A stretch of 64,000 nt of DNA, taken from positions 9,636,501-9,700,500 of the forward strand of contig OZ038530.1 in the NCBI GenBank assembly GCA_964036665.1, written 5' to 3'. Made by a program: the position numbers and the translations under genes. The stretch comes from Gordius sp. MW1. Taxonomy: Eukaryota; Nematomorpha; Gordioida; Gordea; Gordiidae. The notes under the pieces are model-generated. The model had not been told where the DNA came from, searched no databases, and saw only the letters and a program-made list of their open reading frames with translations. Below, piece by piece: positions 2,961 to 57,243 of this stretch. Each line of letters opens with the position of its first letter. The stretch's first letter is position 1.

Positions 2961-3030
2961 TCCGATTCGTAAAGGATATGCGGCGTATCTTTTTGCCATC
3001 CATAGAACTTCCGCTCGGGGGGGGAGGGGA

Positions 3031-8656: not shown

Positions 8657-8768
8657 TAATTTTTGTTAAATGCTATGTAAACAATTTGAATAGAATATGA
8701 CGAAAATAAATCAATAAATAATAAAAAGTTGTTTTTCTTGTAAAATGGTCGATAAGAGAAAGTTTCAT

Positions 8769-28689: not shown

Positions 28690-30874
28690 GGCTAAATCCC
28701 GAAAAAGCACAATCCCGAAGCTACGATATGCTACTGCTGCGATTTTCAAATTTTCATATGTTTTTTAATTTTAAAGTTTTATCGGTGCCCTATCAACTCG
28801 CCGAAAACAATCTCGCCGAAACTCACCAAGGGACATTTTCTGATTGGTTGTTTAATGTCCCCCAGCTTAAAATCGTCCCCCATTCAACCAATCACAAATT
28901 TGGGGACATTTTTTTAGCTTGGGGACATTAAATTCGGCGAGATTGTTTTCGGCGAGTTGACGGGCCACCAGTTTTATGATATCAGCGATCATATTATGTA
29001 CTTTCAATCAATTCAAGAGCTAGATTTGGGTGCAACCTTTACAATTTACTTAGTATGAATACATTTAATTTGTTAAATTTATACAATAAACCATTTAGTA
29101 CACTAATGTTTAAAATTAATTTCAATCAATTCAAGAGCTAGATTTGGGTGCAACCTTTACAATTTACTTATGTATGAATCACATTTAATTTGTTAAATTT
29201 ATACAATAAACCATTTAGTACACTGATGTTTAAAATTATTACAAGCAAACATAAATATAGTCTTAATTGCAAATATTAAATTTATGTTTAATTACAAGCA
29301 AATGAAAATATTATCTTGATTGCACTTATAATACTACAAAAAATGCAGTCTTAATAGAGTTTATTGATTTACAATCTTATATAATTACAAATCTAAAAAA
29401 ACAAAACAATCTATTTCATTTAATAAACCATTTAGTAAACTAATGTTTAAAATTATTACAAGCAAACATGAATATAGTCTTAATTGCAAATATTAATAAT
29501 TTCAATATCTACAAACATATTAATGCAGTCTTAATCATTGGTCTATGTTAATCTTAATATTTTATAAGAGATTTTATTTAATAATTTTCAAGGTGTTTTC
29601 TATCTCAAATTTTTAAAAGGGTTGCAAATATGTTTAATTACAAGCAAATGAAAATATAGTCTTAATTGCACTTTCAATATCTACAACATATTAATGCAGT
29701 CTTATTAGAGTTTATTGATTTACAAAATTACAAATGCCATCCCGAAATCAACTTGACAAAACATAGGATTAAATGTAAGCCCTATAGAACTGCACACTTT
29801 TCTAAGGCTTGTAAGAAATTCTACCTATGTCTTTGAAAATTTATTGGGGAGAATACTATAAATTGTTAGTATCATGTGGTTCTTAATCTTATACACAACA
29901 TGAATAATGTACATTTAAAATGTGTGAATGCAATGTTTTCTTCATTGTTCATTTCATTGACTTAAAAGATGGTAGAGCATGTGATTATTGCCATATATCT
30001 TCCACTTCTTCACGTCTTTGGTAAACATCATTGTATACCTAATAGGATTAATAATTCTCTAATTTTAAATACGTTAGGATTACCATAGATATGGATTCCA
30101 AAGGATTATTATTTATGGAATCCTTTAATTTATGCTTTGTCACTAAATATTGATACTCATCAGTTGCAGGTTGTGATTATTTCTTAATTTAGCTATATTT
30201 TTACAATATATCAATCTGCAAGGGCATTTTGAATTTCTGCATCTATAGTAGGTTGTGATCTGAATAGTTCTGTCAACGACATATAGATCATTGAGCATCA
30301 AGATTGTTTTTCTTTTTTTGAAAATTTTAATCTAAATTATTTGGGGGTTATACTAATTAGAACTAAAGGTTGATCATCTCCCTGTGTAGGGGTCTTCTCA
30401 TTGGCTTCTAGTAAGCAATTCTCAGTAATAACTCCACTTAGTTTTTCATTTGATGCTAAAATCTTATAAGTAAAGCTATATTATGTTACCTTGAATACGA
30501 TTTTAAGAATGCTCAGTTGTGACTATAAAATTAATATTCTTCAGTATAGCCTTTCCTGGGCAATGACATATAGCACATTGCCTGCACTTGTATTACACCC
30601 GTCCAAGTTTTCCATCTCCAATTTTGGTATAATCCAAGTCCTTATGGGTCAGAATCTAATTTTTTCTATTCGTCTTTTTATATTCTAAAGATAATTTATA
30701 AATATTTAGATATTAAGCTTACTTATATTTTCTCTTTTCTGTATTATCTTGATTTGTTCTCTCAACCAAAAATTCACTAAAGCTTGATTATATGATTGCA
30801 TTTTTTTTACAATATGTTAATTGGCGCCAAGTGTAGCATTAAATTTCGGGACTATGCGCTTTCGGGATTTAGCC
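28690..30874. mobile_element. 2.2 kb TIR element with TA target site
   Basis: GGCTAAATCCCGAAAAAGCA at the left is matched on the minus strand at the right by GGCTAAATCCCGAAAGCGCA. TA flanks both ends (28,688-28,689 and 30,875-30,876), in line with the Tc1/mariner superfamily. The interior is AT-rich, without a transposase, and includes a 117 bp tandem duplication (about 29,006-29,240) and repeated AATATAGTCTTAATTGCA words. A palindromic MITE is nested at 28,784-28,969. Confidence 0.75.
28784..28969. mobile_element. Palindromic MITE, second copy
   Basis: GGTGCCCTATCAACTCGCCG starts the element and ...GACGGGCCACC ends it, the same family as 10,826-11,000. Flanks AGTTTTATC and AGTTTTATG match at eight of nine bases. 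A frame reading through it (28,638-28,931) is chance. Confidence 0.85.
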
Positions 30875-30879
30875 TAGGA

Positions 30880-32243
30880 ACCCAAAAAAGAAATGTTTTA
30901 ATCCAATTTACAAAGTGAACCAAAAGCCCCCTGTACATACTCTTCTTTGACATCTCCAAGGCATTTGACTCACATTTATATATATGGGAAACCCTTTGTC
31001 TACTTGGATTTTCAAAAAAAATTATAAGACTTATTTTCATGCTATATGAAAACCAAAAACTCTTTGTCAGACATTACCAGCTGCTCTCAAACCCCATCAC
31101 TCCAAACTTAGGTGTTAGGCAGGGATGCCATGCCCCTTATCCCCTCTGATCTTCATCTCGGTTTTGAACCTAATACTGAAGAGATCCATATTCCCAAGCG
31201 ATGGCTTGCTGTTGAGCAACAACACGAGGATCTCGTCTCTTTTGTTTGCCGATTATATCTGCTTAATCTCCGACTCATTGACCAACCTACAAAACATGCA
31301 TGATAGATATGCTCAAGAAGCAGCCCGAGGAGGCCTGATCGTCAATGCTGAAAAATCCACGCTACTTGCCCTTAACCCACAACCCAATGCGAGTATCATG
31401 AGCCATAATTCTATTATTAATCCCTCGGACCAAGTCAAATACCTTGGTGTGTCTCTGTGCACGGACAAGTACACCACGCTAGATGTCTCAGAAAAAATAA
31501 CAAAGGCTACCAACAGGTTCAAACAATGCAACAGAATTTGGAACTGCAAGATGTTCTCAAGAAACCCCATACTTCGCCTATACAAAATCTTAATCCTCCC
31601 ATCACTCTTTTAAGGCTGCGAGACCTGGAACCTCAAGACAAGCTCATTTAAAAGCATACAAACAAAGGTGAACAAAATGTTGAGATTGTCTGTCAAATCT
31701 TCTACCCAAGAATAATTAGGAATAAGAACTTATGGTTTCTATGTAAACTTCCCCCGGTCAAATACATGATTTTGGTTAAAAAGTGGAACTTCTTAGCACA
31801 CCAGTTTCGGAGAGGCTCCCCCAACCTCTGCATGTCTACTTTACTATGGAGACCCCCCCCTCCAATTAGGATACCGGAAATGCCGTGGAACGTGGACTTA
31901 CACGTCGAGAGAACTAAACGGCATAGTACTTCAACCCGGCCAACTAGACGCGATCTTCTTAGACAGGAACGCTTGGAAAAAGTTTGTCATCAATCACCTA
32001 GCCTACATATTTCCTGCCAACACGCCAAAAAAATTTGATTACCATCCATAAACCTCCAAGCCCTCTTCCCGCAGTCTGGCAATATTCAAGCAGGTACCAG
32101 CGTGAAATCGAACGAGGCAAACTATCGCTTATTTCCAGTAATTTGCCGTAGATAGTATGTAAATTTTTGTTTTACTTATGATATTTATATAAACCGAGTG
32201 TGCTGCCTACTGACTTGCGGCACCTCTGCCTCTACTATTGTGA
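30880..32243 (+). pseudogene. LINE reverse transcriptase remnant
   Basis: In-order RT motifs appear across several frames: FDISKAFD (block A) near 30,950, GVRQGC then LSPLIFISVLN near 31,110-31,160, LLFADYICLISDS near 31,240 (the catalytic FADD has become FADY), GLIVNAEKS and VKYLGVSL further on, then a GCETW box near 31,615 and NFLAHQFRR near 31,800. Frame changes near the block B region and after 31,613, plus the altered active site, show it is dead. Its 3' end runs straight into the TCTA array at 32,244. Confidence 0.85.
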
Positions 32244-36779
<4,536 letters not shown>

Positions 36780-36831
36780 TAATCTAATCTAATCTAATCT
36801 AATCTAATCTAAACTAATCTAATCTAATCTA
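36780..36831. repeat. (AATCT)n pentanucleotide flank
   Basis: About ten copies of AATCT, one with AAACT, follow the tetranucleotide array without a gap, a one-base expansion of the same motif. Confidence 0.95.
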
Positions 36832-37599
36832 TAAAAACAAAATGTTTATTTACATATTTTATTATAACAGAAGTAAGTTATTAAAAGATTTTATTTAATT
36901 ATTAAAATCTGTTATGCAAATATTTTGTTCTTAGATCATATATTTAATATGCTATTTATCATAATATTATGCTTACATCATTTTCTCTATAATCAATTTC
37001 AACATAATCTCCGTATACATTAATTTGTTGATTTCTATGATTAGAAACAGTTCCCATAAATTTGAACAAATTTAATTTATGTTTATTAATAATCAATATT
37101 TAAAAACCTGGTCTAGGATTTCTTGGAGTACATGCCATATCATCTGATATCATCAGAATAATATGTGAATCAAAAATTCCTAGTCTTTTAATGCTCCTAT
37201 ATATGGACAGTACATTTGCCACATGCCTATAATTGAACCATGACCTTGAAGTCTCTACTAACAAAGCCCAATTATTTGTATGATCCATATTTTGCTGCTT
37301 GAAATTTATAGTGCTTTCATATTTATTGTAAATGTCATTTTCAGTTGAATACTTAAAAGATAATTGAAATTACACTTTAAACTATAATAAATTATTTAAG
37401 TTTATTTAATAGGTAAAAAAATAAGCCTTTCTTTATATAAGATATTTTACAAGCAACAAAATAAATTCCTTATTTAAGCTTCTAAAAGTAAATATTTCAA
37501 AATAGAAAGCATATTGTAATGAAATCTAAAAATTATTATGGACTATTAAGAAATATTTTTATACTAATATAAAAATTACAAGATTGAAAATTTGAAATA

Positions 37600-37990
37600 A
37601 AACTCGGGCCTTCGGCTCTCGTGGGAAGGGAGAGGGGGGAAGGGGAGGAGGGGAAGGGAAGGGGGAACGAAACTCATCTATACTCCGTATAAAAGTAGCA
37701 TATTTGCTATGCAATTTATGGGCGAGAAAGGTGGGAATAGAGTTGTTAAATTGCTAACTTTAGCAATGCTAACTATGTGCTATGCTCGAGCACGAGCACT
37801 AGCTGGGTAATATGCTAGTTTAACACAATGAGTGCTAGCTGTTCGGTGCAATAGTTTTAACAGTAGAACGTAAAAATGCTCGAGAGGTTAGTCGAAGCAG
37901 CCAAATCTGTTAAAAAATTTAGCGGGAGCTCGAGCAGTAAATTCGAGCAGATAGTAGATTGAATAGCTATTTGTTAAAATTACAATTTTA
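37600..37990. mobile_element. Unclassified insertion in unit 1
   Basis: From 37,602 unit 1 diverges from unit 2 (about 56,830). The insert starts with ACTCGGGCCTTCGG, a purine-rich tract and GCATATTTGCTATGCAATTT, words also found near 45,788-45,970 and reversed near 42,780-42,900. The remainder carries repeated GCTCGAGCA words. Boundaries and class are unclear. Confidence 0.5.
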
Positions 37991-39499
37991 ATCATATTAT
38001 ATATCATATTAGGCCTAAAAAGTAAGGCTAATAGTTTCTTGTTCGTATAATAGACTAATCATTCAAAGACCATGTAAGGTCATTAAATTTTTTGTACATT
38101 AGCAAGCAATAAATATCAAATTTAATATATACTTTGTGGCATTTTGTATGATTATAGTATTGAAAAATATAAAAGGATGTAAGGCTTAACGAAAAAAAAG
38201 GATAATTGCTGGAATTGCTTGAAAAAAAATCAAAGCTAAGCTTTAAAATTGATATCAGTTACCAAATTACATTATTAGTTTTTATTCCCCATAAAACTGT
38301 CAGATGTATAAAATACGCCATAAAATAAATCATCAACATATTCTTTCAAGTGCTTAAACAGCTATCACGAGGCTAAAGGAACATTTGATAAATATCATGT
38401 GAGTGTTCGATACAAAAAATCATTTTAATTTACAACGTTAAACTTAAAAAATGTATACAACTTTTTAAATGATGAACGCGAATGCTTTAACATTATATCA
38501 AAAGAGATTATAAATACAAATTAAGGACGGTAAAAAAATCGCGAAACATTAATAGTATAACAAAATGATCTCGATGCAATATTTTTTAAGTCTCCTTTCT
38601 TTTTAATTATTGTATTGGGTATGAGGAGTCTGAAATTGTGGTTGACGTTGATAGTAGGCTTGAGTATACTGACCATACCCCACCGGAGTCAGGTAGTTGG
38701 TTGAAGGCGTGTGATATTGAAGCCTTTCTGCGCCTCCTGCTGATTGCTGATAAATTTGATTTGGAGGGACAGGGGGCCCTTGAGGCTTGTAGTAGTGCTG
38801 TTGCGGTCCTTGCGGATTAACATTATAAGCGTTGTTGGATCCCGGTTGTCCGTAAGGCGATCCACAATTTAATGCTATTAAAAAATTACCAACAAATGTT
38901 CAATTTTTGTGCAAAAATTAGTTAAAAATAAACAGTCTCGGCCAATAATCGGTTAGCTCATTAAACTTGAAAATAAAAATATTAACTCATTTTGATAAAA
39001 ATATGGAGTTCTACTAAATCTTATATATAAAAATGAAACTATGTGTGTACATATGTATGTATGTGTGTATGCCGCCACCAATTTTGGAAAACTACCAGAC
39101 CGATTTGCCTCAAAATTTCACAGTTTATTCCCCACACTCCGGAGCGTGTTTTAAGATATGTTCGAGCGAAATCGGTCCAGTAGTTTTCGAGATATTGGGT
39201 TTTATGCGTTTTGACGTTGCATAGAACGTCAATCAAACGCCCTACCCTCATCACGTACTGCTGCGTATCTTATCTATATATCGTGTAGGTAGTCTGGTGA
39301 TAAATGCAGTAGGCATGTGTTGCGGAAAATGAAAACTTTTTACGCACTATCAAAGCCATTTTTTGCTTCAATTATTATTAATTGCTATGCAATTTATGGG
39401 CTCACTTTCCAATTTGTTTTGTCACGCTGTTCGGTCACGCACCGAGTGTTCACCGCATGTCTTACTTTGTTTACTTTTAATTTTTGTTAATTTAACTAG

Positions 39500-40880
39500 T
39501 TTTTGGGTTCGAATCCCGGTTTTTTTTGACTATTATGATTGTTCCTGTTACTACCACTGCTATTATGACTTTTTGGCCGTCCGTTGGGTGCTGAGTGCTG
39601 ACCAATGAAAAAAATGACCAATGGCCAAAATGTGAATCCAAGTTTATTTTTTCGTTTTTTTTCGACTATTGTGATTGTTCCTGTTACTACCACTGCTATT
39701 ATGACTTTTTGGCCGTCCGTTGGGTGCTGACCAATGAAAAAAATGACCATTGGCCAAAATGTGAATCTAAGTTTATTTTTTCGTTTTTTTTCGACTATTA
39801 TGATTGTTATTGTTACTACCATTGATAATAAGACGTTTTGGCCGTCCGTTGGGTGCTGACCAATAAAAAAAATGAGCACCGAATGTCTTGTTTTGTTTAC
39901 TTTTAATTTTTGTTAATTTAACCAGTTTTTGGGTTCGAATCCAGGGTCTTTTTTTGACTATTATGATTGTTCCTGTTACTACCATTGATAATAAGACGTT
40001 TTGGCCGTCCGTTGGGTGCTGACCAATGAAAAAAATGACCATTGGCCAAAATGTGAATCCAAGTATATTTTTTCCGTTTTTTTGGACTATTATGATTGTT
40101 CTTGTTACTACCATTGATAATAAGACTTTTTGGCCGTCCGTTGGCTGCTGACCAATGGAAAAAATGACCATTGGCCAAAATGTGTATCCGAGTTTATTTT
40201 TTCGTTTTTTTCGACTATTATGATTGTTCTTACTACCATTGATAATAAGACGTTTTGGCCGTCGGCTCCTGACCAATGAAAAAAATGACCATTGGTCAAA
40301 ATGTGAATCGAAAATTATTTTTTCCTTTTTTTCTGACTATTATGATTGTTCCTGTTAATACCATTGCTGTTATGACTTTTTAGCCGTCCGTTGACTGCTG
40401 TCCGATAGAAAAAATGACCATTGGCCAAAATGTGAATCCAAGTTTATTTTTTCCGTTTTTTTCGCCTATTATGATTGTTCCTGTTACTACCATTGCTATT
40501 ATGACTTTTTAGCCGTCCACTGACTGCTGTCCGATGGAAAAAATGACCATTGGCCAAAATGTAAATCCAAGTTTATTTTTCCCGTTTTTTTTGCCTATTA
40601 TGATTGTTCCTGTTACTACCATTGCTATTATGACTTTTTGGCCGTCCGTTGGCTGCTGTCCGATTTTTCTTTTTTCATTTTTGTTTTGACTCTTATGTAT
40701 TTATATCGACTTTTAAAGTGTACTGGCTGCTGACCAATGGAAAAAAATGACCATTGGCCAAAATGTGAATCGAAAATTTTTTTTTCGTTTTTATTGGCTA
40801 ACATGATTTATAGACCATCTGTTGGAACTGCCCATTGGAAAAAAATGACCATTGACTAAATTGTGAATCGAAATTTTAAT
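39500..40880. repeat. Helitron-internal minisatellite, about 125-130 bp units
   Basis: Roughly ten diverged units share GACTATTATGATTGTTCCTG, TTTTGGCCGTCCGTTGG and AAAATGACCATTGGCC. The unit includes an imperfect hairpin (ACCAATG...CATTGG). Single reverse-oriented units occur outside the Helitron near 46,500-46,590 and 47,160-47,260. Overlapping frames here are repeat translations. Confidence 0.9.
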
Positions 40881-41185
40881 TTTCGTTTTTAATTTGTTAA
40901 CATTGATAATTACCCTGTGCCCCACCCCCTACAGAACCCTATGCCTTTACTGATATGGGTCCCTGTGTCCCTACACTTATTAAAGGTTTAATCAATGATA
41001 TTTAACGATTATCTCACTTTTATATACTTATATTAATAATAGCATGTATATTAAAATCTTCTATTGCTGTTAAAATTTTGTTCTGATTTTTTTAATTAAA
41101 AATTGTTCAAATTCAACAAAAAATTTCTCCCAACAATTCTGCAAAATCTTAACATTGTGATGTTTTATAATATAATGTTTGTTAC

Positions 41186-41415
41186 CAGGCGCGTAGCCAG
41201 GATTTTCTCAAGGGGGGGGGGGAAATTTCAAAAATTTTAAAAACTTCATCGGGAGTAGGAGCTAACTCCCGATGAATTGTCAATAAAGCCAATCCATTTA
41301 ATCTATTCTTAGACATGGTATTTCTAATGTAAGTTTTTAGCCTCCTCAGCGTTGAGAAGCTATAAAAAATCTTTTTAATCTTTGCCAAGGGGGGGGGCCC
41401 TTATTTACGCCACTG
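41186..41415 (-). mobile_element. hAT derivative with transposase C-terminal remnant
   Basis: Termini CAGGCGCGTAGCCAGG and TTATTTACGCCACTG are flanked by perfect TTTGTTAC repeats (41,178-41,185 and 41,416-41,423). The minus strand encodes FSTLRRLKTYIRNTMSKNRL and then GLALLTIHRE, characteristic of the hAT C-terminal dimerisation region found in ZMYM1-like transposases. It is an internally deleted element keeping only the end of its gene, nested in the Helitron. Confidence 0.9.
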
Positions 41416-41429
41416 TTTGTTACACGCCT

Positions 41430-42740
41430 AATGTTAAATATTTTTGAATTTTAGCACATATACCCGTTTTTAAACTTAGTGATTTACCCAATTTATTAAT
41501 TTACTGCATTTCACGATTCGGACCCATAATCACTAAAGGCCATAAAAACTAATGTAATACGCAACTAGATGCAAACACTAAATCTAACCCTAACCCTTGC
41601 CTATATTACATTTTGCAAACATCCGGATTTAAGGATTTAATAATCATATTTTTAATATATTGGACCACAAATATTAGTTATTTTGGGAACTATTTGAAAC
41701 GGTGTATAAATACACGTTAACCGGCTTTTTTAAATATCTATCAATTCAACGTTAAATAATCTAAACTATAAATTAAGTGGCAATGTAAAATCATGGGTAG
41801 ATATTAAAATTAACATATCTTATTAATAATAAATGCGGGATAGCGATTAAGAGAATTGATGCCAACCCTTGCTTACCATATATTTCAAATTTTATTATAG
41901 TAGTGGAGTAGTGGTGGAGTATATTTTATATTGATTTTTTTTTCAATGGCGCTATGCCAAGGTTAAACCCCTACCGGGAGTGGAGGAGATGAAGAAAGGG
42001 AGAGAGATCATCTAAACGACATTTAAAAATCAATTTTTTGGTAAAAAAAAATACATTTAGACAAGCTATTTTGTTTTAAACAGATATTATATCAATGAAA
42101 AGTTATCATAATTAAAACATTAAATAAAATATAAAGTCAAAGACGTTTAATTTTTTGATTTCACCCCCCCCCCCTTGCCTAGTTACCCCCTCCTTGCCTT
42201 TTATATTTTAGCAAATAAATTAATATAAAATTAGTAATAAATTAATACTAAAGAAAGCCTAACCTAGACGAGGATAATTGTTGTTATAACTGGAAACATT
42301 CTTTACGACAATATGGATTTTTGAATTAATAATAGAATTTTTAAAGCATATTTGATTATTTAATGTTCACATTTTATTTTACAAAACAATCCCTTGTTAC
42401 ATAGCCAGCTTCTGCCAAATTAAAAAAATACTATCTTTTTCTTCTTCAAATTTTTATCACATGCAAAACATACGTTATAATACGGCGAGTAAAATTGAGG
42501 GTTTAAATTTAAATGAATTTTCATTTATTTTTTTTGGACAAAAAAGTAGATTTTTATGTTGTGTAACTAGCATGGGAGTAGTAGCCAAGGGGGAAACCCT
42601 AGCAATTATCCTACCCCCTATAGGCATTTTCGCCCGTTCCCACCTTTCTTCCTTATAAAAGCATATATATTTTTTTATTGGGTTAATATATTTCATTTAG
42701 TTAGATTGTGATTTCATAGAAAATCTAATAGTTGGCTGTC
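41430..42740. other. Helitron body without genes
   Basis: AT-rich sequence. A 70 bp block with GCCAAGGGGGAAACCCTAGC at about 42,583 is repeated at 42,746. No ORF is credible. Confidence 0.5.
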
Positions 42741-43131
42741 TTTGCCAAGGGGGAAACCCTAGCAATTATCCTACCCCCTATAGGCATTCTCGCCCCTTCC
42801 CACCTTTCTCGCCCATAAATTGCATAGCAAATATGCTACATTTATACGGAGAATAGATGAGTCGTCCTCCCTTCCCTTCTCCCCCTTTACCGGGGGTCTG
42901 GGGGCGGAGCCCCCAGGAGATGGGGGTTTGGGGGCAGAGCCCCCAGCAGGGAGTTTGGAGGCGAAGCCCCCAGTTACGCCCGAAGGGCGTATTATTATTA
43001 TAGGACGGTCGTGTCCCCCCCTCCTGCGTGGCTAAATAAATTAAAAAATCTAATTTTGTAATTTTTTGCACGTTAAACAAGGAGAAAAATGAAAATACTT
43101 TTAACAAAGTGCCAATAAATGTTGATATATC

Positions 43132-43794
43132 CATGGGCGTAGCTAGGTTTTGAATTAGGGGGGGGGGGGCAGATTAAAAATCCATGGGCGTAGCTAGGTT
43201 TTGAATTAGGGGGGGGGGCAGATTAAAAAAAAGGTCTTGACTACCCAACAATTTTCCTGGGAGCAAAAAAAAAGGTCTCGACTATCCAAAAATTTTCATG
43301 CAACCGTAATTTAAATTTTATTTTACCAAAACAGTTTTTTTTAAACAAATAGTAGTTTATTCTAATAATCACATGGGTAAAATACATTGGTGAATAAAAT
43401 ATTAAAAAGAAAACGCGTTAAAATCTAATTGGATGGCATTGATCCGTGTATGGAAATCGTGTTAGATTTGACGATTTCCATAGTGATCTTTTATTTTTGT
43501 GTAAATTCGCTAATAATCTGTATTAATTGGAGTTAAGTTCAAATAGGGGGGGGGGGCAGCCGCGCCCCCTGCCACCGCCTGCCTGGCTAATTAGGGGGTG
43601 GGGCAAAACATAATTTTTTTTTAATTTTTAAGGGTTTTTGTATTGAAATCCTCGGCTGCCCCCCCCCCCAAATTGCGAAACCAAATTTTTTTCAATGCAA
43701 AAACATTGAAAAATTTATGTTTTGCCCCCCTCTAATTGAACTTTTAAACGTTTTGCCCCCCCCCCCCCCCTAATCCAAAACCTGGCTACGCCCA
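43132..43794. mobile_element. GGGCGTAGCC-family element, 0.66 kb
   Basis: It begins CATGGGCGTAGCTAGG and ends CTGGCTACGCCCATG. The first 50 bases are repeated at 43,183, as if one copy inserted into another's end. Long G and C runs characterise both ends. Confidence 0.7.
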
Positions 43795-44115
43795 TGATTA
43801 TAGGTAAATTTGACTTAAAAAAATTTGCTTCAAAATTTAAATTCGAACATTATTGAGGTAAAATTTTGTGTTTTAACCACCCTTAAAGATATCAATTATT
43901 TGTTATTTTTCGTTAAATAACCTATATGCGTATCCGTATCCGCCTTTTGTTTATATTTTATCATAAAGGCCAGGCGCGATATTTTTTTTTGATTATAGGT
44001 AAATTTGACTTAAAAAAAATTTGCTTCATGAAAATTTACATTCGAACATTATTGAGGTAAAATTTTGTGTTTTTAACCACCCTTAAAAATATCAATTATT
44101 TGTTATTTTTCGTTT
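43795..44115. repeat. Direct duplication of about 120 bp near the Helitron 3' end
   Basis: TTATAGGTAAATTTGACTTA followed by about 100 matching bases occurs at about 43,800 and again at about 43,995. Confidence 0.85.
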
Positions 44116-45787
44116 AGTTGAGTTTTTAAATTTTTTTTTGGTAGTTTTTAATTTTCTTATTTAAATTTTTTAATTTTTTTTTTAAATATTTTTAATATGG
44201 CAAAACAACGTTTGCCGGGTCAGCTAGTAGCCTTATAAAACACAAATGTGTGAATAGCAAAAAGTGTAATTGCCATTGTATTCTTAACTGCAAGTCGATG
44301 TTGGTCGACGCTTTACAATTGCATAAATGACAGAAAGCCTTAAGAAAAACTTATCTTTATAAGAAAATTTTTAGCGACAGATTATCACCTATTTATTATT
44401 TTTCTGTGGACCAAGAATAAAAATGATTTTAATAAAATTGTTAAATAATAATTAATTTCTTCATCAGGGTTTAAGGAATATAAAAAATTTTAACTCTTCA
44501 TTGGTCTTACATTTTTATTTAGGCACGTTAGGTTATAGTAATTATGACCTTGAGGTTTAACTAGTTGTAATTTAAAATTACAAGTCATTAATACCAAAAA
44601 TTTTAAGATTTTATTTTCTTACTCTTTCAAGCTCTTAAAGTCTCAAAATTTAAATATAAGTTTAAATTTATTCAAATCTCACAACCTAGTGCCTTCAAAT
44701 TTATGATAATACAATTAATAAGCCTTGGATGGCCCGTAAAACTAATGAAATATCAAACTTGCCCTGGCGGCACACCATAAAAACCACCTGAGCCTAAAAA
44801 TAGCCGAGTTAAGAGATATCTGCATAGCTTAGGGTGAGCGGTATAAACACTGAATAGAGTATTGATACGAAATACCTTGAGACTGTCCTTGGGCCGAATT
44901 GTAATATTGGGGGGCAGGAGGAGGTTGATGCATCATGATAGGGATAGTTACGGTGAGTGGCGGAAAACCTCCAGGGACAGAGAGAGGCGTAACAAACATT
45001 GGGGTATTATTAGGGGCGGCTGAACTAGTATTATAAATACTACCACCCGCACCGTACTCGTTATAAAAACCCTGCAAAGCTGATGATTGTGGTGTCATGG
45101 CCTGGTTATAAGGGTGGACAGGCTGAAACGGATGGCTCGTGCCTGCCGACGCCATATTAAAAGTTGCACTTGTAGGGGGCTGGGCAATAGTGGGAGCTGA
45201 ACAAATTAATATAGGCGAACATATAGAGGTAGATTATGGATAAAATCATGGTCAAAATATTTTCTATAATATTAAACAATACGTAGCTAAGTTGAGACAA
45301 AATCTTATACAGAAGTTACTAGTTTGAAATTGTTAAATAGTAAAGATCCAAAAGTAACCATTACAAAAAGAGTAAAGCTATAATTTTAACATATATTTAT
45401 TTGTTCTTGCGGTCAAATAATTACTTCACATTAAATTGTCGTTTTTATGTTAAAATAACTTTTTACTAACAACCAAAACAGTGGATGAATAAACTTAAAG
45501 CAAAATTAGAACTATGTAATCAAGAATTTTCAATCCGTTTATATAAATTTCATTGTGTAAAATCGGTGGATTTGGATTGATAGCGTAGGTAGAGGGAAAT
45601 GGAACGCGATATTTCTGGCTATAAAAGCCCATCATCAGGGGGAAAAATACTTTAAATAAGCCGAGTTCTGACGAACCTTCACCGATAAAAACATATATTA
45701 ATTTGTTTAAAAAAATTTTCAACTTTTAAATAGATTGTTTTAATCTCTAAAATTACCGAAAGATGTTTGTCTAAAACGATTATTAAA

Positions 45788-46225
45788 AACTCGGGCCTTC
45801 GGCCCTCGTGGGAAGGGGGAGGGGGGAATGGGGGAACGGAAGAGAAGGGGGGGGGGGGGGGGGGGGAAGGGAAGGGGGAACTTTTTTATACTCCGTATAA
45901 AAGTAGCATATTTGCTATGCAATTTATGGGCGAGAAAGGTGGGAAGGGGCGAGAATGCCTAGGGGGGCAATCGTCAATCAGAATACATATTTATTAAATA
46001 AAAAAAAAGAATCTCCAAGTTTTAAATATTATTAATTAATGTCACACCGCCTAAAATTTAAAAATACCTATTTATTAAATATTAAAAAAAAAGAATGCAA
46101 AAGTTGTTACAAAAAACAAGTAAATATACAAATTATTTATTTATTTTATTGCAATTATATAATATACTATCATAAAGTAGAGGCATAGGCCCTTGTAGGG
46201 GAGGGCATAGGGTCATTATTAATGG
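45788..46225. mobile_element. Insertion fragment between the two exon 8 copies
   Basis: The upstream exon 8 copy's flank stops matching at 45,787, where ACTCGGGCCTTCGG and a long purine tract begin. The words GCATATTTGCTATGCAATTT are shared with 37,700 and the Helitron. It marks the right edge of the local exon 8 duplication. Confidence 0.5.
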
Positions 46226-46233
46226 TAACCTAA

Positions 46234-46451
46234 CAGGCGCGTAGCCAGGATTTTCTCAAGGGGGGGGGGAAATTTCAAAAATTTTAAACACTTTATCGAG
46301 AGTAGGAGCTAACTCCCGATGAATTGTCAATAAAGCCAATCCATTTAATCTATTCTTAGACATGGTATTTCTAATGTCAGTTTTTAGCCTCCTCAGCGTT
46401 GAGAAGCCATAAAATTTTTTTTTTAATCTTTGTCAATTATTTACGCCACTG
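46234..46451 (-). mobile_element. hAT derivative, second nearby copy
   Basis: The sequence is close to the 41,186 element, with a different perfect 8 bp duplication TAACCTAA (46,226-46,233 and 46,452-46,459). It is therefore an independent insertion rather than part of a larger duplication. Confidence 0.9.
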
Positions 46452-46697
46452 TAACCTAATATACCAATCTAAAAACCAAAAAAAATTTCGATTTATACTT
46501 TAACCAATGGTCATTTTTTTCATTGGGCAGGAGCCAGCGGACGGTCAAAAAGTCATATTATCAATGGTATTAACAAGAACAAAAATTAAATTAAAAAAAA
46601 ATATCCTCTCCGGGGATTGAACCTGCACCAAGTCAGAAAGTTGAAAGCCGGTGAACGTTGGAGGATTGGCGGGTATAGAATAATTATCAATGTTAAC

Positions 46698-47113
46698 TAG
46701 AGATGCACCGATACCAAGTATCGGCATGGTATCGGCGCCGATACCTTGCCAAAAGAATCGGCCCGATACTTTGCTAGTATCGGCAATTACCAAGCCGATA
46801 CCTTTTTCAATATGAAACTCAAAAAATAATATTAGTATCTCCTACCATTAAAAAATAGAGGACTTTTTAAATTTTTTAAAAATTGTTTCATTTGATTGGC
46901 TATAAATATTTCTTTACAATTGTTTTATCGTCAAAATTCTGATCTACCAAAATTTGGATGTGACTTAATTTATAATATTTAATTTGCATATATTTTTTAG
47001 TATAAAATTTTTTTTTATTATAAGTATCGGCATGGTATCGGTATCGGCAAAAAAATCTTAAGTATCGGCTGGTATCGGTATCGGCATAAAATAGTGGTAT
47101 CGGTGCATCTCTA
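46698..47113. mobile_element. hAT MITE with GATACC repeats, 416 bp
   Basis: Inverted termini TAGAGATGCACCGATACCA and TGGTATCGGTGCATCTCTA are flanked by perfect ATGTTAAC (46,690-46,697 and 47,114-47,121). Subterminal GGTATCGG words are repeated many times at both ends, as expected for transposase-binding arrays. Confidence 0.92.
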
Positions 47114-49441
47114 ATGTTAACCTAATATACCAATTCAAGAGCGAAAAAAAAATTAAAATTTTGAATCACAATTTGGCAAATGGTCATTTTTTCATTAATC
47201 GGTTCGGTAGCCAGCGGACGGTCAAAAAGTCATATTATCAATGGTATTAACAAGAACAAATATTAATTTAATTTAAAAAAAAATTTTTGTCCTCTCCTGG
47301 GATTGAACTCGAACCTGCAAGTCAGAAAGCCGGTGAAAATAACATGGTGGACAACGGACGGACAACAAAAAACGTGCCCATAATTGTATTCAAATCTCAC
47401 AACCTAGTGCCTTCAAATTTATGATAATATAAAATAAGACTTAAATAGCCCGTAAAACTAATGAAATATCAAATTTGCCCTGGCGGCACACCATGAAAAC
47501 CCCTTGAGCCTAAAAATAAGCCGAGTTAAGAGATATCTGCATAGCTTAAGGAGAGCGGTATAAACACTCAATAGAGTATTGATACGAAATACCTTGAGAC
47601 TGTCCTTGGGCCGAGTTGTAATATTGGGGGGCAGGAGTAGGTTGATGCATCATCAAAGGGATAGTTAGGGTGAGTGGCGGAAAACCTCGAGGGACAGAGA
47701 GAGTAACAAACATGGGGTTATTATTAGGGGCGGCTGAACTAGTATTATAAATACTACCACCCGCACCGTACCCGTTATAAAAACCCTGCAAAGCTAATGA
47801 TTGTGGTGTCATGGCTTGGTTATAAAGGTGGGCAGGCTGAAACGGATGGCTCGTGCCTGCCGACGCCATATTAAAAGTTGCACTTGTAGGGGGCTGGGCA
47901 ATAGTTGGAGCTGAACAAATTAATATAGGCGAACATAAAGAGGTAGATTATGGATAAAATCATGGAATATGATTTCTATAATATTAAACAATACGTATCT
48001 AAGTTGAGACAAAATTTTATACAGAAGTTACTAGTTTGAAATTGTTAAATAATAAAGATCCAAAAGTAACCATTACAAAAAGAGTAAAGCTATAATTTTA
48101 ACATATATTTATTTGTTCTTGCGTTCAAATAATTACTTCACATTAAATTGTCGTTTTTATGTTAAAATAACTTTTTACTAACAACCAAGACTGGATGAAT
48201 AAACTTAAAGCAAAATTAGGACTCTTTAAATAAACCGAATTTTGGAAACCTTCACCAATAAAAACATATATTAATTTGTTTAAATAGATTTTTAACTTTT
48301 AAATAGATTGTTTTAATCTCTAAAATTACCGAAAGATGTTTGTCCAAATCGATTATTAAAATATTTCGATCGACGCGTGCATTAAACAACACAAAAATAT
48401 TCTTCATTACTTTCTTTTTCCTTACCTTTCGCTTTTTCTTTACTTTTTTTCTTTTTCTTCTGTTTATATTGTTGAGGCGGTTGAGCTAAGGGCTGCGTCG
48501 TGTCTCTAACGCTACTGCTTCTACTGCTAGAGGACACATCCAAATTTACAAGCTCACTTAACACGCTAGCAAACGTCATATTTTCCGCAGATGAAAAAGG
48601 TGGAACATTGCCAGAGCGGACGGGTACAGAAATGCTCGGAATTTCGTTATTTGCTGTCGCTGGGGTGGAGGGGGCAGCTAGTATTATTTCGCTGTTCGCA
48701 CTGAAATCCGCGTTTTCAAACACCTAATTAGCGTGGGCAAAAAGGGTTAAACAATTTTGATCAGATATACTCTAATTAAGACACATTGTGTCTTCTAAAT
48801 GGCCTGAAAAGGTTAAAATATTCATACGAGGGATAAAAATTACAACTTTGATGTCACTTTTTTGGCTTAGCTTATTGTTATGCAATAATGGTATAATAAT
48901 GAAAGTAAAATTAAAGTTAAGTTAAACTCAATGCTGGACCTTAATATTTCCACCACTAGCTAGTAGAAATTGTAAAAAAATCATAGATTTAGCCTAGAGA
49001 TATATAAAGGGGGAAGGTGCTTTATTATAAGAAAGATTTAATAAAATTAATTTTACCAAAAAGCATTGACCCTGGGATTCCATTAGCCTAGGCATTTAAT
49101 TTTATAGTACATTTCCTTGGTCTTTCATACATATAAATAAACGATTTTGGTTATACAAATAATTTGTGTTGAAAATAAGCGTTTTAACATAAACACATGT
49201 GCTAAAAACTTCTAGAACATCTGTAGCTATATATTTTGTTAAACACCCATAGTAATGATAATAACTTTAATCCATCTCGAAAAAAAATTATATAATAAAG
49301 TAACTAAGTAGTGAAAATAACAAAAATTTATTTAAGTATCGTAGTGACGTAGGAAAGGGCAATTGCCCCATAAATAAAACTAGAATTTCTTAAATATTAT
49401 TTAATAAAGAAGGCTAAAATAAAAAAAATCATCCTTTTACC

Positions 49442-51345
49442 TGGGACATTCCATGTCAAATCGCCACGTTTTCGGCCGACCCCCTCAGAATTTTATAAAA
49501 TTTGGTGGAAATGTTAAAACTAGTAAAATTATTAATTTCCGAAAATTTTAGCTCATTTGGGCCACTACTTTTCGAGTTGTGTGCTCTCAAAGGTCGAAAA
49601 TCGGCCATTCAAAAAATCGGGTTGTGACGCTATATTCAATAAAATTCATAAATTATTGGCCCCCAAATCATAGAATCTTGTTGTAGTAATAGGTAAGACC
49701 TATCTCCATAGGGAAAAAATCCAAAAAAATTTTTTTGTCGATTGGTCATCTCATAATGGCCGAAATGGCCAATATGGCATAACTACTGTTGAACCCTCTC
49801 AAACCGTTTCAAATTTGAGACAAATGTTTTATACTACCTATTAATCAAATTAAATAAAAGAGAAAGTTGGGCGGCCATCTTGAAGTGGTCATAAATTGCT
49901 AGAAACGGTATTTTATTTATTTGGCGCCAAAATGACCCTCCAAAATTGGTTTTTTTACTCATTTAGCCATCTTATAATATTATTATATCTATTATACAAA
50001 TATTTTTGCTATAAATTAACACCCCAACCCCCCCCCCCCCATATTTCCTATAAATTACAATCAAAATAGGGAGTGGTTTTTCTTCGAATTTTGAAATAGA
50101 AACAGCTTTGAAAAATCACCTTAAATAATAATTTATTTCAAATTATATATTCATTGTTTGTTATTCGATATGTAAAAGTATTAAAAAAAAGTATGACGGA
50201 GGGCATGTCTTCAAGCGCATATAAAAAATTAATTTAACATATCTGAAGTATATTTTAGGTAAGGCAATATGTTTTAGTGTCGCATCAAGCATTTCGTTTT
50301 AAATAAGGTATAAGTTCTCCGGTTGAGGTTAAAGGTGATACAATTTTTAATATATCCAATTTCTTTAGATATTTTGTGAAATTTATCTAAGCGAAAGGGT
50401 TCGCATGGGTTAAGCAAACAAACTATTATTTTTTCATCGTCATAATTTTTATTATAAATTAGATTCAAAATTTCGAACGTCTAGGGGATAATTAGTTGAT
50501 AGTAAAATTAAACGATAAAGTAATTTTATTAAAAGAATTCGACATCATTTAAAATTCGCGCTAGAGGTCATACAAATTAATTCATACGCGCCAAAAAAGA
50601 AATCAATCTGTGTTGATAAGGCAATTTTAAAGCCTATATTCAATAATCCTGACGATTTTATTATCTATTTCACGAGCCTGTTTCCAAATTACAATAAAAT
50701 AATTTGTGGGAAAAAATTACTCGCTATTTTGATTTAAGATTAAAGGGGGGGGGGGTTGGGGTGTTAATTTATAGCAAAAATATTTGTATAATAGATATAA
50801 TAATATTATAAGATGGCTAAATGAGTAAAAAAACCAATTTTGGAGGGTCATTTTGGCGCCAAATAAATAAAATACCGTTTCTAGCAATTTATGACCACTT
50901 CAAGATGGCCGCCCAACTTTCTCTTTTATTTAATTTGATTAATAGGTAGTATAAAACATTTGTCTCAAATTTGAAACGGTTTGAGAGGGTTCAACAGTAG
51001 TTATGCCATATTGGCCATTTCGGCCATTATGAGATGACCAATCGACAAAAAAAAGTTTTTTGATTTTTTTTCCTATGGAAATAGGACTTACCTATTACTA
51101 CAACAAGATTCTATGATTTGGGGGCCAATAACTTATGAATTTTATTGAATATAGCGTCAAAACCCGATTTTTTAAATGACCGATTTTCGACCTTTGAGCG
51201 CCCATAACTCGAAAAGTAGTGGCCCAAATGAGCTAAAATTTTCGAAAATTAATAATTTTACTAGTTTTAACATTTCCACCAAATTTTATAAAATTCTGAG
51301 GGGGTCGGCCGAAAAACGCCTTTTTATGATCGATGGAATTTCCCA
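49442..51345. mobile_element. 1.9 kb foldback element with about 600 bp arms
   Basis: 49,442-50,045 and 50,745-51,345 are long inverted copies, e.g. TGGTGGAAATGTTAAAACTA against its complement. Outer ends read TGGGACATTCCATG and, on the other strand, TGGGAAATTCCATC. Unit 1 near 26,035 has the empty site (TTTTTACCCCTCTTTAG), suggesting a very short duplication, perhaps CC. The unique centre has only a short unrecognised frame (50,274-50,468). Confidence 0.88.
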
Positions 51346-51658
51346 CCTATCTTTAAAACATTATCCCTCTTCTAATTTGAACCCTGGCTACTCCGATGAA
51401 CTAAGTGTAATTTAAAGTACATGAAAAAAATTCTGCCTTTCTGAATCATTAAATTTTTTTATTAATAATAAAGAATAATGGGCTTAAAAATCGGCAAATT
51501 ATGACTTTAAGCGAATTTAAGTTTGAACAAAAACGATAGCCATATATTTTAACTTTAAAAATAACTAGACTGTTTAGAACTCTTTATTCTTACATTTATT
51601 AATGCGTAATAATTACATTCAATGCATATATAAATACATAATATTGATTAAGATGCAT

Positions 51659-54600
51659 TCATAATTCATTTTTTGAAACTAAATAAACGAGTTCCTCGGG
51701 CGTCGGTATAAAAATGATTGGTCTATTGCTTCCAAAGAATTTAGTGACGGGCACGTTCCGTAAATTGTAAGGGTACAGGTCGGTTCTATTACCGACGGTG
51801 GAGCCACACTTTCGCCTCGGGCAACATTTAAACTAAAAATAAACTTTAAAATAAATGATAATTTTAATATTAAAATTTCTTATATTTTTAATCAACATTT
51901 TCAGATTAATAAATATAATTTTCTCATACAAATTTGAAAGACAACTTTTTAATAAATTCATCCCTAATAATCATCGTAAAACTCTTTGCCACAATGATGT
52001 CTTATTGCTTTGGGGAAAAAATTTAAAGACTTGAGATTACAAAATTACATTTTGTAAAGTTCACCATTAGACAAAAATAAAGAGGCTCAAATTTTTAGGT
52101 TTCCTATAAAATTTATATATTTATTAACTAACCAATTGGTGCATGGTGTGTCCGCTGTCTGGTGTAACGCGTTCGAGAAATTCCAGAACGTAGTAAGTAA
52201 ATCGGTCAATTACATAAACTCCGATGGACGAATCTATATGATGCTAAACGTGCAATATAATTATAAACAAAAGGTAAAATATCCATTTATCAAACACTGT
52301 CTATCTTTTGAATTGATAATAATCATAGAAAATTTATAAACTTCTGAAACATGTGTGTACTAGAAAATTTTTAACATTTTTTTGTAAAATATGTTGATAT
52401 TAAGGGAGAGGGGGGTAAAGTACCGATAAAGAATCTTCGCCCACCAAGCTACTAGCTAGTCCAAGCAGATTTGGAGAAGCGAAATGTTTAAACATGGAAG
52501 TTGCTTGGCACGTGTCGATCATGAAAAAGAGCTCGTTGTATCTAAATAAAACATCTTTTAATTTACCCTTAATTTTAATATATGTATTAGCTATGAGTAA
52601 TCACAACATTTTTAGGCTGTAATAACCCTTTTTAACATTTGATTTTAATAAAATGAGCTCTCTGTTGATTATAAAATTAGGATTCGATGAACATCACGAT
52701 AATTTAGCATTATTTTATTAAGTAATGATTAAATATAAAAATTATCGTCTGCGCTTTGTTTATGCATAAACGCTTCAAACAATTCATTCCAATTGGGACT
52801 GTAATCAACAAAAAAAAAACTACCTTTTATTTTGCCACATTTCAGCAAAAGCTTTTCCCAATTCCACATTAGTAATTTCTTCAGAATCTTGAAACTTTAG
52901 AAATCCATCTCCTCCATGGCCTTTGATATTCAATAAACATTTAAAAAGGTTAAAAACATTTTTTTAATTAAAACCAATATACATTTAGCTTTGTATTAAT
53001 TTTGTTTTGAAAACTTAATTTCCAAAATCGAAGTTAATATCAAAAAAGGCTTAAAGAATTAACAAACACAGAAGAAAGTAATCAAAGGTAAGAAGCTACC
53101 ATTCTAAATTGAATATTTTAATTTTATTATTATAAGATTTGGATAAAAATTTTATTCATTGCTAAACCAAGATCCTAGGTATGACAATGAAATAAAATGA
53201 TACAATTTTTGTTGTATTCTTTCATTGCCTATACAACTAGTAAATTTTAAAAATTTAACCTGTCATGTAGATCAAAAGGTTACTGCCCTCATCAGTAAGG
53301 AGTTTTTTAGAATCTGGAGTACCAGGTAAATGTCGGTTCATGAATATTCTTAATAAGTTTTCTACCGTCACCTTATAAATTAGATTTAAATTTATAATTT
53401 GATCAAATAAGTCAACTTCAGTTTAACCCATTAAGACCGGACCATAGAAATCCTCGACAGATTTTCATAAAATTTGGAATTCCTAGGTGATTTTGCACCA
53501 ATAAAAAAAATTTAAACAAAAAAATGAAAAAAAACTTGTTTACTGCCATTTTTAAGGTGTCGTATATATCATACGGTAGGACATGCTGTCTTTATGGCTG
53601 TATAAAACGAACTTTTAACCCTATAACTACTCTACTTTCTGTAAAAGCATAGCTGGAGATAAATTGTTTTAAAGTTTATTTCAACATTTATAAAAAATAA
53701 TCACAGAAAATATGAAATAATATTGTAAAAGTTATAAAGTATGATATTGAATAAAACAATTTATGTGAAGTCCCACGTTGCATTTTGTGCATATAAATTT
53801 CACAGACTTGTGACAAACCCCACACCTCCTTTGTGTTGGGTTCTTAGCAGGCCAATGTTCAAGCTTATCGAACCGAACCTCGGTATAAACATTGCTGATC
53901 CGCTTTGGATATACCGTCCTCAGTCGGGGAATCATTGGAGTTGATAGTAATGGGATTGTAATCTTTCGCACAAAATTTAACAAAGAAATCCCTTTATGAA
54001 CTTCACGAAATAAAATCCAAAAATTTACTACGGCAGCATTTAGGCAAAACCGCACTATGGGCCAATACCATTTTTTAGATCGTATGCCCACCCGATAAGA
54101 GCCCCGAAATTGGTCGAAGAGGTCAACACCCCCCATTCCCTTATTGTACTCGCTAATAATGGTGGGTTGAGGTACTGTAATTCGACTCTTGGCCGACCTG
54201 CTTTATCTATTGCATTTTGTTATTGTGCTAGCCAGGACGTCTGTCCGGTTAGTTGCCAGTGTGACCTGGCTGTTATCGTTCAATCTGAACAATTGAATTT
54301 TAGAATTTTTTTCCTGTAGGACTCGCCAAGATCCTCTTGGCTCCTTTTTTAAATCTTCAAGGGGTGCATTTTTGATTCTATCACTTCGTATCGTACCTGT
54401 AAGTCTAATTGATTGCTTAGCCAAATCTTGCAATAAAGGTAGAGAATTGAAGAAGTTATCAATGTATACATGACTTTGTGGAGGGACATACCCTGTGACC
54501 AGCTTTTTGACAATCGCAGAACCGAGGGGTACTCCGACTTCTCGTTCTTCGCGCCCTTCGTATAACTTAAAGCGACAGCAATATCCATTGGGTTTGTTCA

Positions 54601-56565
54601 AGCACCAAAATTTAAACCCAAATCTTATGGGCTTACCACGGATAAATTGTTTCAAATGATATCTACCATAGTAGGGCTCCATGGCCTCATCTAAAGAATA
54701 TATCATCGGATTAGGCGCAATATATTTTTCAAAATTGTTGTTGATATGGTTAACTTTTTTTATGCTTCCAAGTTCCCTGTTAATATTGTTATCAGAAAAG
54801 TGTAAATACTTAAAAATAGTATTAAACCTATCTCTTGCCATACAATTAACAATGGCACTATTATTAACATCTGCCTGAGTCTGCCAATATAGTCGCTTTT
54901 GTGGCAACTTACAATACCCTGATAATAACAACACACCTAGCAGTTTGTAAATTTCATCACATGAAACATTAAAAGTTTCATCACTATATTTATATTTAGC
55001 ATATTTTTCACTTTCTTTACATATAATCTCTATTAAACTTGGATCCCAAAATAGTTGGAACACTTGTAAAGGTGTCAGGGCATCTTTTTGTATAAAAGTC
55101 AATATGTTTGGAACATTTTCTTTAATATTTTGAATTTTAAATTTTGTATGTTCATTAGTTTCTGGCATAAGATTTATTGGACTCCAAGATAAGAGTTTTT
55201 GTTTTTTTGAAGGATTGTCATTTTTATAATTTGGGATAGGAATTTCTAATAACATTTCTGTAGTTGATTGAATTACTTCATTATCTATATCTCTTATTAA
55301 AACTTCAGCTTTTCTTGTTAGGACCCCAGGTCCTAACTTATGAGGATCTTTAATCAAAACTTCATTTTCATCCTCTGAAATTTCATCTTTATCAGAATCA
55401 AGATAGTCTGGAGGTGGAACCAAGGCCAGATCAATTTGTTGAACATTGCTCAATAAGGTATTATTAGATTCCAATAGAGTAAGCACTTCTTCTGTATTCA
55501 AAGGCCTACGGTATGATATATACGACACTCAATTTTAAAGACATATTTTAATATTAAAGTCTTATAAATTTTATATAAAAAACATATCATTTTAAAGAGA
55601 AATTTTTATAGTTTATTAATATATCAAATTAAATTAATTAAATACTGTTTATATAAAAGTTTATTAACAAATACTTACGGAAGGTTCTGTTTTTTCGAAT
55701 TTCTAGAATTACACTTGCTTTTACGAGTTAAAGAAGGCATTGAATAAGGAAACACAATAAAAATGATCCACCAGGAAGGTAGATCACATTTTAAGCTTCA
55801 ATAAAAACTATGTTTGATAATATCTAAGGGCCATTAAGTATTAAAATTTTTAGACTAAAAATGGTCTATTTTGCGTATGATAAATACGACGGTAGGTCTA
55901 AATGGGTTAATAGTGTTATATACCATGGATATAATAAAATGTAGCAATTTTACATCAGTTTAAATTATAAAATCAGTTTTGTAACTTAAATAACAAATTG
56001 CTTTTAATAAAATAATACTTTATAACAAATAAGAAATGTTTCATTCAAATTTATAGTGAGCCAGTATAGTGTATAATAACAACATAAATCTTTGTTAATT
56101 TACTTAATTATTAAAATCTGTTATGCATATATTTTCCCCTTGATTAAGTACTTAATATGCTATTTGTCATTATAAAAGTATTCAGCTTACATCATTTCCT
56201 CTATAATCAATTTCAACATCATCGCCATATACATTAATTTGTTGATTTCGATGATTAAAAACAGTTCCTATAAATCCAAACAAATTTAATACATGTTTAT
56301 TAATAATCAATATTTATAAACCTGGTCTAGGATTTCTTGGATTACATGCCATATCATCTGATATCATCAGAATAATATGTGAATCAGGAATTCCTAGTCT
56401 TTTAAGGCTCCTATATATAGACAGTACATTTGCCACATGCCTATAATTGAACCATGACCTTGAAGTCTCTACTAACAAAGCCCAATTATTTGTATGATCC
56501 TTATTTTGCTGCTTGAAATTTATAGTGCTTTCATATTTATCGTAAATGTCATTTTCAGTTGAAAA
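51659..56565 (-). CDS. PIGK: PIGK/GPI8, GPI transamidase catalytic subunit (copy B)
   Basis: Seven in-phase exons: 56,322-56,565; 56,191-56,267; 53,260-53,371; 52,824-52,920; 52,424-52,541; 52,133-52,243; 51,659-51,832. Together they give about 310 residues of a C13 cysteine protease. The first recognised exon holds [20 protein letters not shown] and [13 protein letters not shown]. Catalytic His lies in [15 protein letters not shown] (exon junction YMTG|HGG) and catalytic Cys in [27 protein letters not shown] and [10 protein letters not shown] complete the family pattern. In the ER lumen this subunit cleaves the C-terminal signal of precursors and joins the GPI anchor. The signal-peptide exon was not found, so the start is open. 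The last exon ends VSKNEL with no membrane segment, unlike the vertebrate protein. A piggyBac sits in the second intron. Confidence 0.95.
53427..55906 (-). mobile_element. piggyBac transposon, 2,480 bp
   Basis: Ends CCCATTAAGACC and, on the other strand, CCCATTTAGACC are flanked by TTAA (53,423-53,426 and 55,907-55,910). The transposase gene fills most of it. PIGK-A has the empty TTAA at 28,544-28,547 in the same intron position. Confidence 0.97.
53732..55528 (-). pseudogene. piggyBac transposase with one in-frame stop
   Basis: The frame is open over 599 codons apart from a TAA at 54,205-54,203 (codon 442), normal length for the family. The DDD catalytic residues are all present: Asp in [10 protein letters not shown] (about 280), in VYIDNFF (about 357) and in GMGGVDLFD (about 469). 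The C-terminal zinc-binding region is intact (RRCGVCHKS ... [12 protein letters not shown]). The third Asp and the zinc region lie after the stop, so the protein should be inactive unless read through. The first codon is GTG at 55,528, so an upstream exon is likely. A candidate begins ATG at about 55,740 ([18 protein letters not shown]) with a GTAAGT donor, but by my reading it joins one base out of frame. Confidence 0.93.
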
Positions 56566-56931
56566 CTTAAAAGATAATAGAAATTACAATATATTTAAAC
56601 TATAATAAGTTATTTAAGTTTATTTAATAGGTAAAAAAATAAGGCTTTCTTTATATAAGATATTTTACAAGCAACAAAATATATTCCTTATTTAAGCTTC
56701 TAAAAGTAAATATTTCAAAATAGAAAGCATATTGTAATGAAATCTAAAAATTATTATGGGATATAAAGAAAAATAGATTTACATTTTTATAATAATATAT
56801 AAATTACAAGATTGAAAATTTGAAATAAAATCCAAAAAACACATGTCGCATAATTTAACATCAAACAGTAAAACCGCCGTTTATCTAAAACAAAAACGAA
56901 CAAAATGAGCTTAATGTACATTATATAGCAT

Positions 56932-57231: not shown

Positions 57232-57243
57232 TATAGCATACAT

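Follow-up and report, generated by a model that had tools for sequence, protein, structure and literature searches.

Can the last exons of a gene stay in use after they have been copied in tandem without the front of that gene? The question is raised by a 64,000-nucleotide (nt) stretch of the Gordius sp. MW1 genome, hereafter the window (contig OZ038530.1, positions 9,636,501 to 9,700,500; G000:C4:9636501-9700500). In it, a GRASP55/65 (GORASP) gene, here GRASP, is accompanied by four additional tail exons, the orphan exons, which lie between the neighboring gene PIGK-B and a decayed second copy of that gene, PIGK-A. An earlier note, made from the letters of the window alone, took the contrast between the open exons and the decayed gene as a hint that the exons are used, perhaps as an alternative 3′ end spliced from GRASP exon 6 across PIGK-B. 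Lesion counts suggest that selection probably protected the orphan exons over a large part of their existence. That the spare tail served as an alternative GRASP 3′ end is slightly the most likely mechanism, and one to which, judging from the DNA, we would give rather less than an even chance.

The Orphan Exons and Their Origin

Self-comparison of the window reveals two collinear units in the same orientation (Table 1). Unit 1 carries PIGK-A and a second set of GRASP exons 7–9 but no exons 1–6; its homology to GRASP stops in intron 6, at about 49139. In a looser alignment the breakpoint between the units is located to within about 20 nt. On this evidence, the arrangement is the product of tandem copying of the end of GRASP together with the whole neighboring PIGK gene, for which one event, leaving a clean junction, is sufficient. 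The junction structure does not separate a one-event from a two-event origin.

The full gene is identified by its PDZ core (PF04495 in exons 3 and 4) and by exon 1, which matches solved GRASP55 structures. This N-terminal part is found in the full gene only. A search of the genome, a 212 Mb animal assembly of 12 contigs, found matches to the GRASP core in this gene only, among the best candidates scored, and none in unit 1. Lacking the promoter and exons 1–6, the orphan tail is truncated in the manner of an unprocessed pseudogene.

In other respects it does not look like one. All four orphan exons keep their AG, and their GT where one is needed; their phases agree; none has an internal stop; and every length difference between the tail exons of the two units is a multiple of three. 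That is, the number of disabling lesions (frameshifts, stops, lost splice sites) is zero. In these features, exon lengths included, the description in the earlier note is exact to the base. Exons 1–6 followed by either tail make one open frame, of 1527 nt with the unit 2 tail or 1902 nt with the unit 1 tail and both of its exon 8 copies. Both tails thus join in frame to a common upstream exon, and the join proposed in the earlier note, 61,814 to 48,723, would preserve the phase.

The orphan tail has features of its own. Its exon 7 exceeds that of unit 2 by 48 nt, made up of 6 nt and a Lys/Glu-rich stretch of 42 nt. Exon 8 is doubled within unit 1, flanking intron included, as seen in the self-comparison. 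A further donor close to consensus, AAAG/GTAAGG, precedes the unit 2-homologous donor of orphan exon 7 by 15 nt (48411-48426), and its use would leave the phase unchanged. Without splicing at the exon 7 donor, the frame in either unit continues for a few more codons, reaching short ends that are similar (60950-60979 and 48382-48411); an AATAAA at 60920 lies just behind this read-through end in unit 2 and has no counterpart in unit 1. The 6-kb intron that separates orphan exons 8b and 9 contains a tandem array with a 129-bp period (39519-40664).

Genome-wide queries with the tail exons, which skip simple repeats, found exon 9 and exon 8 in the window only (two and three places). The exon 7 query matched twice in the window and also gave two short matches, 47-57 nt long, on another contig, C8, which correspond to its 3′ part. 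Retrocopies or other copies elsewhere, which would have revealed a spliced transcript, were sought with the same exon 7, 8 and 9 queries, and none was found.

The orphan exons could also be spliced without GRASP exons 1–6. One set of explanations therefore dispenses with them: a separate transcript with a promoter between 48,724 and 51,659, trans-splicing, or an assembly error that dropped the front half of a second GRASP. A separate transcript would need a new first exon, because a stop codon stands immediately before orphan exon 7, in its frame. The 2.9 kb available upstream, however, is mostly an inverted repeat (49469-50038 and 50745-51315) and PIGK flank. We regard this group of explanations as quite unlikely, the least probable of those considered here.

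Table 1. Features of the duplicated locus (positions in the window; strand given where the feature was assigned one).
Feature	Position	Strand	Details
GRASP exons 1–6	61814..62921	-	62921-62859, 62823-62743, 62704-62501, 62290-62204, 62163-62033, 61925-61814
GRASP exon 7 (unit 2)	60979..61243	-	265 nt
GRASP exon 8 (unit 2)	59793..60107	-	315 nt
GRASP exon 9 (unit 2)	58724..58992	-	269 nt with stop; AATAAA at 58407 and 58371
PIGK-B	51659..56861	-	eight exons, 987 nt open frame
Orphan GRASP exon 7	48411..48723	-	313 nt, phase 0 start
Orphan GRASP exon 8, copy a	47593..47910	-	318 nt, phase 1-1
Orphan GRASP exon 8, copy b	44876..45196	-	321 nt, phase 1-1
Orphan GRASP exon 9, with stop codon	38603..38874	-	272 nt; one AATAAA downstream at 38286
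PIGK-A pseudogene	26722..37602	-	exon 1 start and exon 3 acceptor lost; frameshifts in exons 5, 6 and 8
Tandem duplication unit 1	25709..49139		PIGK-A and orphan GRASP tail; from self-comparison
Tandem duplication unit 2	49136..61625		PIGK-B, GRASP exons 7–9 and part of intron 6; from self-comparison
Unit junction	49136..49158		GRASP intron 6 sequence abutting PIGK 3′ flank, AT-rich

Lesions Expected and Observed

How unusual is a clean tail of this age? The pooled intron rate was taken from 12 of the 13 listed blocks, comprising 2662 aligned sites; the second intron 8 block, a near copy, was omitted, and intron 7 beyond 48150 and unalignable insertions were excluded. The pooled divergence is 0.161, with 43 insertions or deletions (indels), 12 of them multiples of three. 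The synonymous divergence (dS) of the tail is 0.17, equal to that of the introns; the exons therefore date from the duplication and are no fresh copies. The same agreement rules out recent gene conversion as the source of the open frames.

Lesions were simulated for a three-exon tail, with exon 8a omitted, of 846 or 903 nt and seven splice sites. If half of the divergence is assigned to the branch of unit 1, neutrality predicts 3–4 stops, 5–6 frameshifts and the loss of about one splice site in the tail. For branch lengths of 0.06-0.10, about 7–12 disabling changes are expected under neutrality since the duplication, and none is observed; the probability of no lesion is 9e-4 to 4e-6.

PIGK-A provides a comparison within the same unit. 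Its homology begins only at 37602, so that exon 1 has lost its 5′ half and the ATG contained in it. The exon 3 acceptor reads GG in place of AG, and deletions of 5, 2 and 1 nt shift the frame in exons 5, 6 and 8, respectively; exon 6 has in addition an in-frame deletion of 3 nt. These lesions make PIGK-A an unprocessed pseudogene. The earlier note had claimed at least two frameshifts and a lost acceptor, and the present count goes beyond it, by a third frameshift and the lost start. Its premature stop is present in the shifted frame but is a product of the frameshifts: when indel columns are dropped, the 305 codons compared contain only the natural, terminal stop. The PIGK exons of the two units differ at 2-11 positions per 100, versus mostly 13-23 in introns, and the ratio of nonsynonymous to synonymous substitution (dN/dS) between PIGK-A and PIGK-B is 0.21.

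From lesions and dN/dS combined, the tail has been neutral for a mean fraction of 0.11 of the time, with a 95% upper bound of 0.33, or 0.22 if lesion rates are raised by half. For PIGK-A the neutral fraction is 0.35 (interval 0.13-0.65). The probability that the fraction is smaller for the tail than for PIGK-A is 0.92, and 0.85 or 0.94 with lesion rates halved or raised by half. The unit 1 tail, as judged from these estimates, was probably under selection for at least about two thirds of its existence, or at least about one third if lesion rates are halved. PIGK-A, by the same reckoning, was likewise protected for most of its history and died late.

These results bear first on the alternative that the tail is a partial duplicate dead from birth, never used and open by luck. 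Against it stand the probability of no lesion given above and the posterior probability that the neutral fraction exceeds 0.9, which is 1e-4, or 5.5e-3 at half the lesion rates. Nor is the intron-based frameshift rate too high for exons, since PIGK-A gained three frameshifts in 930 nt while neutral for about one third of the time. As described below, several measures of divergence are what a dead copy would show, but on balance we consider a tail that was never used improbable.

A Possible Second 3′ End for GRASP

A GRASP tail can be protected only if it is translated behind something. There are two candidates, exon 6, spliced over PIGK-B, or a former full GRASP copy.

We slightly favor the first. 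A tandem duplication would have copied GRASP exons 7–9 along with the adjoining PIGK, and for most of the period that followed selection would have maintained each part in the two units. PIGK-A would then have died, losing its start codon and one acceptor and suffering three frameshifts, and the spare GRASP tail would have stayed clean. Exon 6 would be joined to unit 1 exon 7, skipping unit 2 exons 7–9 and PIGK-B, to give a product with the same PDZ core and a second, longer disordered tail. In favor of this mechanism, the orphan exons are in phase, open and spliceable, one AATAAA is kept behind them, and no second GRASP core to which they might belong was found among the best candidates scored in the genome search. 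That the protection is due to translation as a GRASP tail is what we would infer from the anatomy, frames, age and excess cleanliness of the exons. More specifically, GRASP may have two C-terminal tails reached from exon 6, one near and the other 13 kb on, over PIGK-B and with exon 8 twice, kept by selection since the partial duplication while the passenger PIGK copy died. This detailed form we put forward tentatively, as possible rather than probable.

The second candidate is a recently orphaned remnant. Here, a complete second GRASP would have been duplicated with PIGK, and both second copies would long have been functional. Late on, a deletion with one end in intron 6 of the second GRASP and the other in the PIGK-B 3′ flank would have removed the front half, and PIGK-A would have lost its start; the tail would be clean for want of time since the loss. 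The final junction would be identical. The estimates above suit this history well, as the tail and PIGK-A were both mostly protected and PIGK-A died late, as though the block had functioned as a whole before it failed, and the upper bound of 0.33 on the neutral fraction of the tail leaves room for a recent loss. It requires, however, a second, late event, and among the best candidates scored in the genome search nothing further of a second GRASP core came up, though the deletion would explain that too. The two explanations fit almost equally, one offering a single event and a long skip, the other two events and ordinary splicing. We hold the remnant to be a plausible account that also falls short of an even chance. 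The ranking of the four explanations discussed here is a matter of judgement and was not computed.

Several observations weigh against an alternative 3′ end. The far tail must outcompete a nearer one with its own poly(A) signals, across 13 kb that include PIGK-B, and unit 1 has lost one of the pair of AATAAA signals present in unit 2. Halving the lesion rates raises the upper bound on the neutral fraction of the tail to 0.64. The contrast in lesions itself, none in the tail versus four in exons 2-8 of PIGK-A, has P = 0.09 with exposures of 9.5 and 11.5, which are rounded expectations for the tail and PIGK, the loss of PIGK-A exon 1 being omitted; counting that loss, five lesions versus none, gives about 0.05 by our own arithmetic. 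The contrast is weak because PIGK-A too was protected most of the time. The use that the earlier note read from it is partly supported: long protection of the tail is borne out by lesion counts, but the contrast adds little.

For the tail pair, a codon model of our own gives dN/dS = 0.48 with exon 8b and 0.51 with exon 8a, values for both copies together that are compatible with one relaxed copy, and the result depends on the method: it is about 0.34 by NG86 and about 0.76 by YN00 as implemented in Biopython. A ratio of 1.0 is rejected by the codon model (2dlnL, twice the log-likelihood difference, of 8.7 and 7.4). The comparison of exon copies that the earlier note had proposed as a check yields, then, a ratio above the 0.21 of the PIGK pair, one copy of which is dead; pairwise dN/dS gives no support for present use of the tail.

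Here a tail that was never used finds its arguments. A ratio of about 0.5 would also result if one copy were neutral and the other strictly conserved. Differences between the tail copies are only mildly skewed by codon position (20, 25 and 35 in 278 codons), and the divergence of the 3′ untranslated region between units is 0.084, about half of the intron value, as expected if unit 2 alone were constrained. Such an account, on the other hand, demands almost no amino acid change in the disordered tail of unit 2.

The doubled exon 8 is a further difficulty for an alternative 3′ end. Polarized by unit 2, exons 8a and 8b have 7 and 5 changes in 300 sites and the flanking intron 9 and 9 in 449, so that the exons diverge at the intron rate (12/300 versus 18/449), and their dN/dS, 0.71, is not different from 1. 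An exon evolving at the intron rate since its duplication is what a remnant would show; even in a used tail, the relaxed rate could be explained by the redundancy of the two copies. The indels favor the exons, which differ by one of 3 nt, versus seven in the flanking introns, none of the seven a multiple of three. Lastly, the splice flanks, exon 8a excluded, are not better conserved overall: 23 of 138 positions differ, 16 of them before exon 9, and 7 of 98 without the exon 9 flank.

Comparable Systems

Alternative use of tandemly duplicated last exons is already known, and the unusual point in the present case is the intervening gene. In the AOX gene of the oyster Crassostrea virginica, the 3′ terminal coding exon is duplicated in tandem, both copies are open, and 3′ alternative splicing puts two C-terminal ends on a common 5′ part (PMC5589949). 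There, however, both variants were seen as mRNA, whereas the GRASP case is known from sequence, involves several exons and has PIGK-B between the two ends. Drosophila pip also has terminal exons tandemly duplicated at its 3′ end, in mutually exclusive clusters (PMC9013439). These clusters are many, their expression is supported by RNA sequencing, and no intervening gene is mentioned in the excerpt drawn on here.

Truncated duplicates, short copies that arise by partial duplication or later deletion, have been described among unprocessed pseudogenes (PMC1484586). The present locus likewise holds intron-containing tandem copies, one decayed (PIGK-A) and one truncated (the GRASP tail), but the GRASP tail is free of lesions in four exons at 17% synonymous divergence. 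In partial duplications of ATP7A in Menkes disease, splicing can skip whole groups of duplicated exons (PMC3240829). These are also head-to-tail tandem exon groups within one gene; they are internal, frame-breaking and disease-causing, whereas the GRASP tail is terminal, in phase and old. Among open-licence papers we found no report that brings together GORASP, PIGK and tandem duplication, nor one that combines an alternative last exon, an intervening gene and readthrough, which is no proof of absence.

If the tail is used, a partial tandem duplication would have been kept as an alternative 3′ end despite an essential gene between the ends, and the dead gene alongside would supply an internal clock. 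Should the tail instead be a recent remnant, the locus would be a worked example of how little an open frame beside a decayed one proves: PIGK-A, though dead, has just four counted lesions in exons 2-8, and protection covered most of the past of the tail and of PIGK-A alike. The informative comparison is that of lesion counts with intron-derived rates; pairwise dN/dS of a disordered tail is uninformative.

PIGK Copies and Other Features of the Window

PIGK-B aligns to the human GPI-anchor transamidase subunit 7w72_K with an E value of 4.6e-126, over query residues 22-293 of 310, 272 residues unbroken. Its C13 peptidase domain, aligned to human PIGK, places it in the PIGK family, the catalytic subunit of GPI-anchor transamidase; PIGK-A is not intact. 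Genome-wide, C13 peptidase matches were confined to the two PIGK copies among the best candidates scored. The predicted frame of PIGK-B stops near residue 311 of the 395-residue human chain, and nothing in the exons found corresponds to the human C-terminal part. Between the units, PIGK intron 1 and exon 2 show just 2-6 differences per 100 sites (37103-37602 versus 56322-56830), possibly a gene conversion tract or a constrained element. Intron 3 differs in content: in PIGK-A it holds a 4.6-kb CTAT array of about 1140 copies, 99% matched (32244-36811), and in PIGK-B a PF13843 (DDE_Tnp_1_7) transposase, which we take to be piggyBac-like, at 53732-55528, with one stop in frame and absent at the matching place in unit 1.

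The inverted repeat between PIGK-B and orphan exon 7 has arms 97% identical around a 0.7-kb center and resembles a foldback element. No Rfam family was matched in 25000-64000. Outside the duplication, a longer inverted repeat (891-9106 versus 15935-20102), with several blocks 79-87% identical, surrounds positions 9-16 kb. Elsewhere in the assembly, CCCTAA telomere repeats stand at two of the three contig starts examined, and a mitochondrial contig of 14,798 bases carries genes on both strands.

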